This document shows positions 51,890-59,171 of a DNA stretch of 64,000 nucleotides, in pieces; within the stretch, counting starts at the first letter, position 1, and each line of letters starts with the position of its first letter. Under the pieces are notes generated by a model. It searched no databases. It saw only the letters and a list, made by a program, of their open reading frames with translations, and was not told the DNA's origin. Made by a program: the position numbers and the translations under genes. Source of the stretch: Mesorhizobium sp. SARCC-RB16n (GTDB lineage: Bacteria > Pseudomonadota > Alphaproteobacteria > Rhizobiales > Rhizobiaceae); NCBI RefSeq assembly GCF_008520305.1, contig NZ_ML703306.1:1-64000 (forward strand). The letters are read 5' to 3'.

Positions 51890-52119
51890 GGCGCTGCCCC
51901 TCACTGTCCTGCCGGACATCTCTCCCCGTAAACGGGGCGAGAGGGCTGGGCGCAACGCCGACGCCTTTCTTGCAACGCCGACAATTGCCGAAAGCAGGTG
52001 CAATAAGCGTCCCTCGCCCCGTATACGGGGAGTTGAGGAGCGGTCCGCATAGCGGACGAAAAGCCAACTGCTTGGCTTTTCGAGCGACGAACGCCGGCAG
52101 GCAGGTGAGGGGCGGCGCC
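51890..52119. repeat. REP-like composite repeat, family B (copy 7), with a nested insert
   Basis: Left arm CTGCCCCTCACTGTCCTGCC and CCCGTAAACGGGGCGAGAG; right arm CCCCGTATACGGGGAG, then a foreign stretch of about 60 bases (52031-52091), and finally GCCGGCAGGCAGGTGAGGGG. The insert carries two hairpins. The copy lies upstream of the RiPP-like gene. Confidence 0.85.
52031..52091. repeat. Nested double-hairpin insert within a REP element
   Basis: GTCCGC-ATA-GCGGAC (52043-52057) is followed at once by AAAAGCCAA-CTGC-TTGGCTTTT (52059-52080). Both stems are perfect. The surrounding family B arm is interrupted by this insert, so it entered after the REP formed. Confidence 0.6.
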
Positions 52120-52144
52120 GACGCAGGAAACAAGGCGGCCCCGC

Positions 52145-52657
52145 TCACCGCGCCGGCCTCAGCAGCGTCCAGATCCAGCCGGCGAAGGTCAGCACCAGGA
52201 AGGGATAGCCTGCCGCTGGCAGCGGCGCCGAGGTCGGCAGCAGGGGCGCGCCCCACAGCACCATGCCCACCGACACCAGGAACAGCACGGCGGCAATGAG
52301 CGCGGTGATCCGCATCCACAGCGCGAAAATGTTCGGCACGCTGACCAGGATCAGCGCCGCCGCCCACAGCGAAATGCCGCCGACATAGGAAGGCACGCTG
52401 GCCTGCAACCCCGCCGCATTGCCGGCCAGAAGCAGGCTCTCGCCGGCCAGGAAGGTCAGGAAGCCAGCCGCCACGCAATCATTGCCGAGCCGCTGGTATT
52501 TCATCGTCAGCAGCGCGGTGGCCACCACCAGCGCCACGCCGTCGATCGCCCAGAGCGTTTCGCGCAGCGGCGCGCTGGCGACGAAGGTGCCGGCGAGGCC
52601 AAAGGCACCGCCGATGGCGAGGCCGAGAGAGGCGATGATGTCTGAGGTGGTGCGCAT
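52145..52657 (-). CDS. Polytopic membrane protein of unknown function
   Basis: A 170-residue protein with about five hydrophobic segments: IIASLGLAIGGAFGLAGTFV (8-27), a second near 36-50, CVAAGFLTFLAGESLLLAG, LWAAALILVSVPNIFALW and ITALIAAVLFLVSVGMVLWG. No family recognised. A truncated second copy of its middle part lies 0.4 kb upstream at 52998-53135. Confidence 0.72.
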   Translation of the reverse strand: MRTTSDIIASLGLAIGGAFGLAGTFVASAPLRETLWAIDGVALVVATALLTMKYQRLGNDCVAAGFLTFLAGESLLLAGNAAGLQASVPSYVGGISLWAAALILVSVPNIFALWMRITALIAAVLFLVSVGMVLWGAPLLPTSAPLPAAGYPFLVLTFAGWIWTLLRPAR

Positions 52658-52700
52658 GTGGTGTGTCTCTGAGAGCAGGATACGTCAGGGGGGAGCGTTC

Positions 52701-52988
52701 TCAAAGGTGATCCGGTGTCTCGGGCATCGGCCCGGTCAGCTCGAAATTCACCAATGTCGGCCCGCCATGGTTGCCATGCACGCGGGCCCTACGCACCGTC
52801 TGCCACGGCATCAGCGCGTCGCCGGCGCGCTTGTCGCGAAAGCCCTTGGCATCCACCGTCACCTGAACCCTGCTGTCGAACCCGCTGCTCGCTTTGAACA
52901 GCCCCCAGTCAAGGCAGCCCAAGGCAAAGACAAAAAGCGGGAACACCCGCCCGTGCGCACCATCCGACGACAGCGCCCGGAACCCCAA
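52701..52988 (-). pseudogene. Truncated PH-like (STM3941-type) protein fragment
   Basis: A 95-codon frame. FVFALGCLDWGLFKASSGF looks like a membrane segment running into a bacterial PH-like domain: VQVTVDAKGFRDKRAGDALM then PWQTVRRARVHGNHG. The domain is cut short at about half the usual length (ends TGPMPETPDHL). It lies between an intact membrane gene and a fragment of the same gene, so this zone is likely decaying. Confidence 0.5.
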
Positions 52989-52997
52989 CCCCGTCGC

Positions 52998-53135
52998 TCA
53001 CGGCGCAATGCCGGCATAGGAAGGCACGCCCGCCTGCAGCCCGGCCGCATTGCCGGCCAGAAGCAAGCTTTTGCCAGCGAGGAAAGCCAGGAAGCCGGCC
53101 GCGACGAGGTCATTGCCGAGCCGCCGGTATTGCAT
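52998..53135 (-). pseudogene. Fragment duplicate of the neighbouring membrane protein gene
   Basis: A 45-codon frame from ATG 53135 matches the middle of the 52145-52657 protein at most positions: RLGNDLVAAGFLAFLAGKS here against RLGNDCVAAGFLTFLAGES there, then LLLAGNAAGLQAGVPSY against LLLAGNAAGLQASVPSY. It lacks the rest of the gene. Confidence 0.82.
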
Positions 53136-53196
53136 CTAGCCTCCCAGACAGCAACGAAGTCTTGATCCGTGAGCTTAAATATCCACATCTTCGCTG

Positions 53197-55604
53197 CTAC
53201 CCGAGCATCGCCAGTAATTCTCCAAGATTGGCAACGCATTGCTCTACATGATGATGTTTCTTGGTGCCCCTTGGTATAAGCTTGGCTCGAGATATGACCT
53301 CTTCAGCACTCTTTCTAATAACATTCTTCTGATTTTCATCGTAGCTAGACCCGCGCGCTATAAAAAAAGGCAGATAGCCAGACGCCACCCTGAATGGATA
53401 GTACGCATCCTCTTCCTTTACCGCCTGCTTTATTAAAAGAGCGTGTGCTTCCAAGAACACCTTAAAATCGTCCCTATACGACATATCCTTGGTTCTGCTC
53501 TCTAGTAGGAAGCGCGCGTAATGATTATCAATCTGGAACGTATCAAAATTTCCTTTCCTGCTCGCATGGCTATAGGCTGTCCGAAAATGAATTTCGCAGG
53601 CCGGATAATTACCATCCTCAAGTCTGGATATTGCAAACTGCAGCCAGAACAATGGATTCCTAGCCATTGATGGAAGTTCTTTCAGGCGATCATAAATTAC
53701 CTTATATTTGTCGCCCATCTTTCTACGAGCAAATATCCGGTCTATAAAGCTGAATCGAATAAGCTCCTTCTGTAGTTCAAAGAACAGCCTATTTCTGCCA
53801 GCATTCTCACACTTCTTTACAACATTTACTATTAAATCGACGACGTAGTCCACATCCACAACATGCTGTAAAACATATTCGCCGAATATAGAAGATTTTA
53901 GGCGAATTGTCCCATGGCGCCTCTCTATCAATTCCATTGAGAACTGATTATTAATCAATTCCCTCTTGGTGAAGACGTCAATATCTGACAGTTGCCCCAC
54001 AAGCATTATGTCAGGATTGAAGCCCGCGATGTCCAAGAAAAGTGTTATGCAAACTATACGAAGAGATTCGCTACTTGGGTTCTCATTGAACGCCTTAATA
54101 ATCTTCTCTCGTATAGACGGCGATTGGAATAGTGAGACGAGTAAGTTACGGGCCTCTCCCTTGCACTCCTTGCTTACAAAATATTCTTCGTCGCTTTGAC
54201 TTTTGTTCGAGAAATCTGCCCAAAGGCCATTATCGTCAATAACTTTTACGAAAGCAGCTATATCATTTCTAGTCAATTTGTTGACGTCGTATTCTGTGTA
54301 ACCGTCTCCAAGAATCTCCGCCACCCGATATGACCTCAATTCATAAATCGATGAGCGAGTCATAGCGACAATAGATGCCCTGGGAACTTCAGACAAGATC
54401 ACTTTGACTGTTTGGGAAAATCGAAAAACATCATCGATAAAAAATATTGGCTCAACAAAGTGGCGCGATACAACCGACAAGTCTTGGCCGAGCGTCTCAT
54501 CGGAGGCATTCACGTGAAGAACTGTGCGGCCCTGCTGGAGTAGCCGCATTTTGAGCGATTCTGCCAAAACTGACTTGCCGTTACCCAAGTCTGAGTGAAG
54601 CAATATGCGGCATGGGCCCTCTGACAAACGGTCGAGTATTGCTTCCTCAACCTCCCTACGCACCACATAGGGAGTGCTCTGGACTCCTTGCCCCAATAGA
54701 GCAGCGCCCTCGATGCTGCCATACAAAAGCAATTTTAAAACGTCATCGCCGGTAGGTCGGCGAGAGTCGGTCGGCATTGCTTCCAACCTGAATGAAATTA
54801 GCTCTTTCGTAGTCCGATCCACATGCTTGGCTTGCCTGACAATCTCGGCAAACTGCTCGACTCCGATGTTTAGTACGGTTCCATACTGCTCAAGCTCTCT
54901 CTTCAGGACTGGGTCAATATCATCTACTTCGATAAAGAAAAGTCTCGATTTCAGCACCGGATCGGAGTATAATATTCGCGCAATATCGATATCATAAACA
55001 CTGTAACCTATTATGACGACGCATCCAGCGATCGATAGGTCTGTCTTAAACTTCCAATACCAAGGCGATTCGATGAATGTATTGGTTAGATAGCTTGCCT
55101 TCGTCAATTTAATTCGAGTCGCGAAATCGGGGAAGGCCACGCCATCCAAAATTCCGTTTATATGTACAACTGACGTTGTATTATTCTTTTCCAGAAAATA
55201 TTGGGAAGCTGTACAATCTATAGGGGTTGAATTGATCTTCTTCTTAGACCTAGCAATCTCGATTACATTGTCGTAGTTTGTAGTGTATATTCTCTTCCAT
55301 GCAAAGCCGGTTATATCCTCGATATATGGAGGTATTTCGTCAGGCGTCAGCTTTTCTTTTAAAAGTTCGAATAGATCGAGCTCACCAATCTGATGTATGT
55401 ACTCTCTGGATATGGTATCGAGTTCGTACTTTAGAGGCATTTTCAGCCGCTCATGAAGCAGCCTCACCAAAGCTCTCCCCGTCGGCAGCGGGTCTTTGTT
55501 TTTGTCTAACGCATTTGCTGAGAAACCAGAGCCAACAAAGAGAAGGGGAAACGAAGATGATAACCCTCGATGAGCGCAGCTAAAGCATCCCGATCACCAC
55601 TCAT
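53197..55604 (-). pseudogene. SIR2-STAND protein (probable antiphage NADase/NTPase), apparent N-terminal frameshift
   Basis: An AT-rich gene in a GC-rich region, so probably acquired. Numbered on the frame-corrected protein of about 802 residues. The SIR2-like domain has LLFVGSGFSANA (about 21-32), TTNYDN (108), HINGILDG with catalytic His148, and GYSVYDIDIARIL. The STAND-type NTPase follows: Walker A SDLGNGKS (338-345), Walker B IFFIDD (about 387-392). A long helical C-terminus resembles repeat sensors. The good start ATG 55604 (MSGDRDALAALIEGYHLRFP) is one frame away from LLFVGSG; one more C in the run at 55545-55548 would join them. Without it the frame opens only at TTG 55470, past the glycine motif. 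Relatives deplete NAD on phage sensing. Confidence 0.8.
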
Positions 55605-55730
55605 TCCCCACCACCCTCGTCTGGCGTATCCGTCATTCCGCCGTTTGCTAGTGGAAGTTAATTGATTTTTGCATCTTAACGCAAGGCAGCAGTAACTTGC
55701 GCCTGAGGTATGCATCGCGCGAAAGTGTCC

Positions 55731-57536
55731 TCAATCGCCCATCTTCAGCGCCTGGATAAACGCCTCCTGCGGGATATCCACTTTCCCAAACTGCCGCATC
55801 CGCTTCTTGCCCTCTTTCTGCTTGTCGAGCAGCTTGCGTTTGCGGCTTACGTCGCCGCCGTAGCATTTGGCGGTGACGTCCTTGCGCAGCGCCGAGATGG
55901 TTTCGCGGGCGATGACCTTGCCGCCGATCGCGGCCTGGATCGGGATCTTGAAGAGGTGGTGCGGGATCAGCTCCTTCAGCTTCTCGCACATCTGCCGGCC
56001 GCGCTTTTCCGCCGCCGTGCGGTGGACCAGCATCGACAGCGCGTCGACCGGCTCCTCGTTGACCAGGATCGACATCTTCACCAGGTCGCCTTCGCGGTAG
56101 TCGGTCAGGTGATAGTCGAAGGAGGCATAGCCTTTTGAAATCGACTTCAGCCGGTCGTAGAAATCGAAGACGACTTCGTTGAGCGGCAGATCGTAGGTCA
56201 ACATGGCACGCTTGCCGACATAGGACAGGTCGGCCTGGATGCCGCGCCGGTCCTGGCAGAGTTTCAATATGCCGCCGAGATAGTCGTCGGGGGTCAGGAT
56301 CGTGGCGCGGATCCACGGCTCCTCGATGGCCGAGATTTTCACCACGTCGGGCATGTCGGCCGGGTTGTGCAGTTCCTTCACCGAGCCGTCATTGAGCAGC
56401 AGCCGGTAGACGACCGATGGCGCGGTGGCGATCAGGTCGAGGTTGAACTCGCGCTCCAGCCGCTCCTGGATGATTTCGAGATGCAGCAGGCCAAGGAAGC
56501 CGCAGCGATAGCCGAAGCCGAGCGCGGCACTGGTTTCCATCTCATAAGAGAAGGAAGCGTCGTTGAGGCGCAGCTTGCCGACGGCGGCGCGCAGATCCTC
56601 GAAGTCGGCGGCGTCGACCGGGAACAGGCCGCAGAACACCACCGGCTGCGCCGGCTTGAAGCCGGGCAGGGCGTGCGCCGTCTGGCGCTTGTCCTCGGTG
56701 ATGGTGTCGCCGACGCGGGTGTCGGCCACTTCCTTGATCGAGCCGGTGAAGAAACCGAACTCGCCGGGGCCGAGCTCGTCGACATTGATGCGGGCGGGCG
56801 TGAACACGCCGGTGCGCTCGACCAGGTATTTGGCACCCGTGCCCATCATGCGGATGGTCTGGCCCTTTTTCAGCACGCCGTCGATGATGCGCACCAGCAC
56901 GATGACGCCGAGATAGGCATCGTACCAGCTGTCGACCAGCATGGCTTTGAGCGGCGCCGTGGCATCGCCTTCGCGCGGCGGCGGCAATTGGTGGACGATG
57001 GCTTCGAGCACGTCGGGAATGCCAAGCCCGGTCTTGGCCGAGATCAGCACGGCGTTGGAAGCGTCGATGCCGATCACCTCCTCGACCTGCTCGCGGATGC
57101 GCTCGGGCTCGGCGGCCGGCAGATCGACCTTGTTCAGCACCACCACGATCTCGTGGTTGTTGTCGATCGCCTGGTAGACATTGGCCAGCGTCTGCGCCTC
57201 GACGCCCTGGGAAGCGTCGACCACCAGCAGCGAGCCCTCGCAGGCGGCCAGCGAGCGCGACACTTCATAGGCGAAGTCGACATGGCCGGGCGTGTCGATG
57301 AGGTTGAGGATATAGTCCTCGCCATTGTTGGCGCGGTATTTCAGCCGCACCGTCTGTGCCTTGATGGTGATGCCGCGCTCGCGCTCGATGTCCATCGAGT
57401 CCAGCACCTGTTCCTTCATGTCGCGCAACTCCAGCCCGCCGGTGGACTGGATCAGGCGGTCGGCAAGCGTGGATTTGCCATGGTCGATATGGGCGACAAT
57501 GGAGAAATTTCTGATGTGGTCGAGGGGCGTGCTCAT
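55731..57536 (-). CDS. lepA: Elongation factor 4 (LepA)
   Basis: A 601-residue ribosome-associated GTPase that back-translocates or assists 30S assembly. G1 [15 protein letters not shown]2 [14 protein letters not shown]3 DTPGHVDF, G4 NKVDLP, then EF4-specific C-terminus [26 protein letters not shown] in its usual place. ATG 57536 gives the standard [20 protein letters not shown]; a longer frame to 57605 is Ala/Pro-rich and unlikely. The SIR2-STAND gene and the debris zone lie downstream of it. Confidence 0.97.
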
Positions 57537-57744
57537 GCCGCGCGCTTTAGCAGGGGCGGCAAGCGGCGGCAAGGCTTGCGGCGCAAGGGCTCCCTTGCCG
57601 CTCACAAAGCGGTGACATCAGCCAAAAAACCGCGAAAACCGCCCCGTGGGCGAAGAATGCGTAAACTTTGATCGATCACATTAGACCTTGGTTTGCCGGC
57701 CGTGTGGTAAGTGCACGAACGCTAATGTCTGTCGGGGGTTGGAA

Positions 57745-58824: not shown

Positions 58825-58842
58825 CGCTGGCGATCTCCCCAC

Positions 58843-59025
58843 TTGTGGGGGAGATGGCCGGCAGGCCAGAGGGGGGCGCTGCCCCACCGACCTTGCCAGA
58901 TCCACGATATCCGCCCGGCTTTTCCCGGCAATTTCCCGTCGTCTGTTTAAACGCACCGGCGTAGCCGCTCTACGACGCCCTCTCTGTCCTGCCGGACATC
59001 TCCCCCACGAGGGGGGAGATTGGAT
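58843..59025. repeat. REP-like repeat, diverged family B variant (copy 8)
   Basis: GATCTCCCCACTTGTGGGGG and GGCCGGCAGGCCAGAGGGGG on the left; CTCTGTCCTGCCGGACATCT and CCCCCACGAGGGGGGAGATT on the right. It keeps the layout but replaces the TATAC core, so it is a sister family. Confidence 0.78.
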
Positions 59026-59171
59026 GCGGCGACCGTTTTCGCCAATCTCCGACGCCCGCAAAGAAAAGGGCGCCCCAATCACAAACCGGTGAGCGTTGTA
59101 ACGAAGTTCGTAGCGGCGGCGAAGTGGGGACATGACGGGCGCATCGTGGCGCCCTCCCAGGGAGCAAGCCG

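Follow-up and report, generated by a model that had tools for sequence, protein, structure and literature searches.

The stretch of Mesorhizobium DNA analysed here, 64,000 nucleotides long and referred to below as the window, carries at positions 53197-55604 (minus strand) an AT-rich island that holds a single gene, which is probably a single-gene Avs5-like SIR2-STAND sensor that has lately lost its function through a one-base shift of frame at codon 14/15. The sequence supports the view that this is an acquired SIR2-STAND defence-like gene from which a -1 shift has split off the start. The gene is also cargo: the place it occupies, bounded by lepA and by a small gene that we call mem, is variable and rich in defence-like genes. 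The features of the region are as follows.

52145-52657, minus strand: the small gene mem, right border of the spot and the nearest border in 40 of 43 relatives
53010-53136, minus strand: partial second copy of mem adjoining the cargo gene, matching the mem of genome G167 at 90% and the window's own mem at 83%
53197-55470, minus strand: readable part of the SIR2-STAND gene from TTG 55470 (757 aa), an open frame with SIR2_2, nSTAND and 9jap matches
54379-54672, minus strand: STAND NTPase region (nSTAND_NTPase5, 29.6 bits against a cut-off of 34), with GNGKS (Walker A) at 54571-54585 and FFIDD (Walker B) at 54430-54444
54970-55293, minus strand: SIR2_2 match (PF13289, 39.5 bits against a cut-off of 24.5), with TTNYD at 55270-55284 and HING at 55153-55164
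55471-55563, minus strand: 31 start-less codons upstream of TTG 55470 and sharing its frame, LSSSFPLLFVGSGFSANALDKNKDPLPTGRA, defined by comparison with the orthologue L139
55506-55604, minus strand: the unaltered frame of ATG 55604, 32 codons and then a stop, by translation
55519-55533, minus strand: GSGFS glycine motif of the SIR2 fold, both glycines present in 69 of 70 aligned homologues
55563-55604, minus strand: codons 1-14 from ATG 55604, MSGDRDALAALIEG, in the other frame, with the switch at about 55563, by comparison with the orthologue
55731-57605, minus strand: lepA, the constant left-hand border of the spot, recognized by DNA identity to sampled genomes

In 500-base windows, GC content is 0.41-0.50 across 53250 to 55749 and 0.59-0.71 clear of the gene, in agreement with the original observation, made from the letters alone, of an AT-rich gene in GC-rich surroundings; as was also noted, the gene stands alone, being the sole gene of its island. 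The 757-codon frame from TTG 55470 is stop-free throughout and contains each of the motifs that had first drawn attention to it, TTNYD, HINGILDG, GNGKS and IFFIDD. The proposal that these motifs belong to SIR2 and STAND domains has gained support from profile matches and from a solved relative, which suggest a protein of this composition. In the Pfam scan, the SIR2_2 match (E = 7.7e-10) lies above its cut-off, the nSTAND_NTPase5 match (E = 7e-7) and an nSTAND3 match (E = 0.0015, 18.7 bits against a cut-off of 27.2) both lie below theirs, and the C-terminal part matched no repeat family. The best solved relative is PDB entry 9jap (E = 2.9e-71), which aligns with residues 24-662 of the 757-residue window protein, and a profile of the whole family recovers 9jap at 5.5e-243 across profile positions 5-812 of 814, followed by further SIR2 proteins that include KomC and ThsA. 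The similarity to 9jap extends over all three parts of the protein. Neither PADLOC nor NCBIfam supplied a useful name for the window protein; the PADLOC matches were weak, to TRIP13 for the window protein (E = 0.023) and to Dsr2 for its orthologue (E = 0.0035).

The window gene encodes the N and D of the catalytic site as well as the NG motif and the P-loop. In an alignment of 70 of the 92 intact homologues, the N and D of TTNYD are found in all 70, as are G298 and K299 of the P-loop, the window protein having both GNGKS and FFIDD, and the position of N105 in the NG motif (N105-G106) is occupied by N in 58 homologues, H in 11 and Y in one. In the window, the DNA encodes the glycine motif GSGFS in a frame other than that of the one good start codon, whereas in the orthologue it is in frame.

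Translation agrees with the earlier observation that GSGFSANA lies upstream of TTG 55470 in the same frame and has no start codon of its own, since that frame has no ATG, GTG or TTG between the last stop upstream and TTG 55470. ATG 55604 is the one good start codon, but it belongs to a different frame, which ends after 32 codons, and the start and first 14 codons are one frame off from the remaining 788. The orthologue L139, from genome G511, reads MSDDKDGLAALIEG-LSSSFPLLFVGSGFSANA in one frame; in the window, codons 1-14 are in the ATG frame and LSSSFPLLFVGSGFSANA is already in the downstream frame, and the N-terminus of the orthologue, MSDDKDGLAALIEGLSSSFPLLFVGSGFSANA, matches both window frames, one on each side of the switch. 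This comparison places the switch at codon 14/15, at about 55563, upstream of the run of Cs at 55545-55548. The distance from the ATG to the TTG codon is 134 nt in the window and 135 in the orthologue, giving a net shift of one base. Thus, the idea that one base is missing holds, but its proposed location in the C run does not, the site being codon 14/15.

The orthologue, which was recovered in a search of 146 genomes of the genus of G229 (a relative whose lepA is among those closest to the window's), is 84% identical to the window protein, is 802 aa long and has 803 codons open. Its chromosomal position is that of the window gene, with lepA on one side and the same solute-binding-protein gene on the other, although mem was not found at the G511 locus; a transposase-like ORF, recognized by eye, lies directly downstream of it (L139:4395-5354, plus strand). 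Over 757 aligned codons the two genes differ at 116, 63 and 424 first, second and third positions, respectively, with a dN of 0.107 and saturated synonymous differences, and on this pattern of substitution, selection acted on the encoded protein through the greater part of the gene's past. The codons around the switch have a similar character. Of the first 14 window codons, 6 are identical to those of the orthologue, 5 differ synonymously and 3 non-synonymously; for the next 31, read in the downstream frame, the corresponding figures are 16, 13 and 2, the first synonymous change coming at the third codon after the switch. Because synonymous changes flank the switch on both sides, the frame was intact during most of that time, and because the changes on both sides are mostly silent, the break is likely to be recent, or else a sequence error.

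The second of these possibilities, in which the organism itself has an intact gene and a mistake of one base in sequencing or assembly produced the shift, seems to us improbable. It accords with the involvement of a single base and with the otherwise open frame of the gene. Against it, none of the 38 conserved window genes (12,858 residues, selected by a codon-composition filter) showed a frame switch when compared with G229, although this control is blind to very short 5' shifts where a match starts late: in 25 of the 38 genes the match begins no more than 5 residues from the start of the reference, and in the other 13 it begins after residue 5. Three of the control genes have an in-frame stop 13-24 residues into the match and before a plausible start, and we read these as over-extended 5' ends. 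Also against a sequence error is the finding that interrupted copies are common in the family. Twelve of 110 family loci, a set that includes a few copies of the same gene (e.g., L058 and L101), are interrupted inside the gene; 11 of these were identified by script, after seven loci with stops only at the very ends had been set aside, and the twelfth is L078. The break sites vary, some lying in the rest of the SIR2 part and four in the STAND part or further on. In Sphingobium sp. SYK-6 (L036, 6001-8079), the change of frame follows closely on the glycine motif, and the title of that record calls the sequence complete.

These interrupted relatives also bear on a further alternative, in which translation from TTG 55470 gives a shortened STAND protein that lacks NADase activity but is functional, for example as a decoy or regulator. 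In keeping with it, the 757-codon frame is open, TTG 55470 is directly preceded by a purine-rich stretch (GGGGAGAGC), and the first break falls in the SIR2 third of the gene in 8 of the 12 interrupted relatives, a hint of an excess there (binomial p = 0.028, uncorrected and with detection uncontrolled). We nevertheless think this alternative very unlikely, because the 2 non-synonymous against 13 synonymous changes in the 31 codons upstream of the TTG imply that the full N-terminus was in use until recently, and both motif glycines are retained in all but one of the 70 intact aligned homologues. Homologues that start at the position of TTG 55470 and lack the glycine motif would have spoken against the original interpretation; instead, 92 of 103 family loci have a single uninterrupted frame longer than 740 codons, the other 11 including contig ends and one internal in-frame deletion. 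The latter, L028 from Bradyrhizobium sp. Ai1a-2, is a 537-codon relative with an in-frame loss of the part matching window residues 395-661, and represents either an internal deletion or a short natural form.

Finally, programmed frameshifting or phase variation could make the break a switch, a reading to which we give almost no credence: although on/off switches are usually found close to a start codon, as this shift is, and a -1 slip at the junction would yield the orthologue's peptide, the frame changes away from the C run, no repeat array was found by Tandem Repeats Finder (52000-57000, score 30), the switch site lacks a simple repeat or long homopolymer, no canonical slippery heptamer was seen by eye at the junction, the orthologue and the 92 uninterrupted homologous loci are read in one frame, and other interrupted copies break elsewhere (that of L036 past the glycine motif). 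One of the interpretations originally offered, phase variation at the C run, was rejected, given a run of only four Cs, a switch that lies upstream of it and the missing repeat array, and that reading can now be dropped; a programmed frameshift has no support among the relatives.

Recent inactivation of an intact gene is the reading that we follow here, and the closest described counterpart of that gene is Avs5 (AVAST type 5; PaAvs5, EcAvs5 and EfAvs5). As far as the accessible text of PMC12931631 describes these proteins, they share with the window protein an N-terminal SIR2_2 domain with G-x-G-F-S and TTNxD motifs, an NG in place of HG (a variant of the catalytic motif described in that paper; H-I-N-G in the window), a P-loop with Walker A and B motifs, a long C-terminal part, and a single-gene organization with a product of about 800 aa when intact. 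The window copy differs from them in being frame-broken, in having nSTAND matches below cut-off and in lying on a branch of its own with alphaproteobacterial neighbours, the comparison with Avs5 being one of description. On these sequence features, the window protein appears to be a distant Avs5-like member.

In a quick maximum-likelihood tree of 90 rows, the window protein and the G511 protein form a clade with an SH-aLRT value of 100, which is joined by a protein from Rhizobium sp. 18065 (99) and then by one from a proteobacterial MAG (99). PDB entry 9jap, an 869-aa SIR2-like domain-containing protein that we take to be the structure of an Avs5 filament by Wang et al. (2025), differs from the window protein in being very like, by eye, the plasmid protein L002, whose group is placed elsewhere in the tree, on a branch far from that of the window protein. 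ThsA, KomC and other SIR2 NADase defence proteins align over some 200 positions of the family profile, corresponding to the SIR2 domain, and beyond these there is no alignment, leaving the STAND part unmatched.

PaAvs5-1 is described in the available text of PMC12931631 as sensing a phage protein, requiring its ATPase and hydrolysing NAD+ through its SIR2 domain. By analogy, in the intact form of the window protein a phage protein would be sensed by the C-terminal part, whereupon the STAND ATPase would switch and bring about assembly; NAD+ would then be hydrolysed by the SIR2 domain at the N-terminus, and the infection would stop. In the window copy, a ribosome starting at ATG 55604 would stop after 32 codons. 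A product from TTG 55470 would be without the glycine-rich NAD-binding loop, and for this reason NADase activity is likely to have been lost, so that none is expected from the window copy. The truncated protein from TTG 55470 could nevertheless be made and might retain some role.

The gene is rare. Matches at E <= 1e-20 were found in 9 of 394 sampled genomes of the family and in 4 of the 146 genomes of the genus of G229, and at E <= 1e-60 in none of 385 genomes sampled across the class, a sample that contained no known positive. A single-sequence query retrieved no close relatives from genome, viral or phage collections and 22 plasmid records, and a query with a six-row alignment yielded 12 viral loci and 123 genome loci, of which the best 80 were taken.

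The surroundings of the gene proved to be variable in a consistent way. The lepA gene of the window has 92-93% DNA identity to those of its five closest genomes among the 394 sampled, and in one of these, G283, lepA adjoins a full-length match (684 bits) to the channel Mll3241, which a PDB entry assigns to Mesorhizobium loti; on these grounds Mesorhizobium is the most likely genus. The region downstream of lepA was surveyed in 46 of 142 genomes with a lepA match: 40 from the upper part of the lepA identity list, some near contig ends having been passed over, and 6 others. Two further loci (L134 and L135), from genomes outside that list, which had only lepA from the neighbourhood plus short repeats, were left out. 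A border gene was found in 43 of the 46 regions, mem coming first in 40 and the solute-binding-protein gene in 3, and neither was present in the remaining 3. By eye, mem encodes a hydrophobic protein, and it has no Pfam match. In the window, a short ORF at 52701-52988 (minus strand), between mem and the mem fragment, looks by eye like a membrane-protein remnant, and at 51922-52032 and 58832-59050 there are an inverted repeat and interspersed GC-rich repeats that recur in several of the relatives compared.

In the 43 relatives with a border gene, the distance from lepA to that gene has a minimum of 123 bp and a maximum of 4896 bp; in 37 relatives it is 900 bp or more. Each of these 37 gaps holds at least one ORF of 100 codons, and 34 of them have a GC content of at most 0.56, the maximum being 0.65. 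Among the 36 genomes in which mem is near full length, the median gap is 2475 bp, and the median GC content of gaps longer than 600 bp is 0.52. As a control we used the interval from mem to the solute-binding-protein gene, which in 25 measured cases has a median length of 654 bp and a GC content of 0.64; the lepA-mem gap is significantly longer (Mann-Whitney p = 4e-6). Across related genomes, the same borders enclose a small cargo that differs in almost every genome read and is in many cases defence-like (window 52145-55731; L129-L133 and L139-L179).

Cargo ORFs with a product of 140 aa or more number 73; these were called mechanically and are likely to include some spurious ones, and they fall into 66 families, six of them common to several genomes. 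An alignment set of 69 of 79 cargo ORFs was used for profile searches. In Pfam, SIR2_2 was found in four of the 69, one being the G511 orthologue, and the matches listed, for 25 of 54 families, include DNA methylases, GmrSD, Vsr, a reverse transcriptase and ResIII; among these listed matches there was no integrase and one transposase-like family, DDE_3. PADLOC recognized 386 families among the 69 cargo ORFs and 3 among an equal number of control ORFs picked at random from 149 beyond the border, a contrast inflated by many overlapping methylase and ATPase models, and in which the control ORFs were filtered by codon composition and repeat the same genes from several genomes, whereas the cargo ORFs were unfiltered. 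Named cargo genes include DRT8 (1.8e-148), PDC-S28 (6.4e-295) and a type II restriction enzyme (1.2e-99). Further cargo comprises an OLD/Gabija-like ATPase, a NACHT protein, a ThsA-like SIR2 protein adjoining a ParA-like protein, and restriction-modification genes.

Some findings run against a purely defensive reading of the cargo. Two PADLOC families (PD-T4-9_C) weakly match ten and nine control ORFs, and DpdF matches one. Moreover, one cargo gene encodes an ion channel. Several cargo ORFs that were scanned singly (among them L148:6428-7672, L170:466-1116 and L156:2047-2871) had no family match.

Other SIR2 proteins were also seen in the spot. L160:243-3431 (minus strand) encodes a different one, of 1063 aa, with SIR2_2, NB-ARC and weak TPR matches. 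In L142:624-2595 and L177:1195-3102, a ParA/MinD-like ATPase lies near a SIR2-type protein, which in L142 is ThsA-like and has a relative in the second ORF of L177; the pair is possibly a two-gene defence unit.

Comparison of the window with G511 gives some indication of how cargo arrives. Expressed as a proportion, the synonymous difference is 0.80 for the SIR2-STAND gene against 0.20-0.29 for lepA and the solute-binding-protein gene. We favour the explanation that the two copies are older than the flanks they share and were acquired separately from a common pool, the alternative being that the gene evolves much faster. The mem fragment beside the cargo gene is nearer to the mem of G167 than to the window's own, and other genomes, too, have incomplete copies of mem and of the 3' end of lepA, suggesting recombination in the border genes and pointing to this as the means by which cargo is exchanged. 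The extra copies of the lepA 3' end lie about 0.3 to 2 kb downstream of lepA (L133, 399-533; G477; G487).

Defence genes at set places are also reported for E. coli hotspots (PMC10121019) and for the Listeria immigration control region (PMC10059834), which, in the portions of those papers available, concern other genera and have borders other than lepA and mem. A literature search, covering titles and the openings of abstracts and with subscription papers mostly outside its reach, found no description of the lepA-mem spot. We put forward tentatively, as a possibility that we consider somewhat doubtful, that the lepA-mem gap is an undescribed, genus-wide Mesorhizobium locus for the exchange of defence genes, working by recombination in its borders and without an integrase, and that SIR2-type defence proteins, at this locus and at others, are preferentially disarmed in the effector third, the sensor remaining.

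The gene itself is a broken instance of an already known class, and the greater importance lies in what surrounds it. The genus is most likely a nitrogen-fixing one, and a constant location in its chromosomes with a different small cargo in almost every genome read provides a list of candidate defence systems, and the spot offers a natural test of defence-gene swapping without an obvious integrase.
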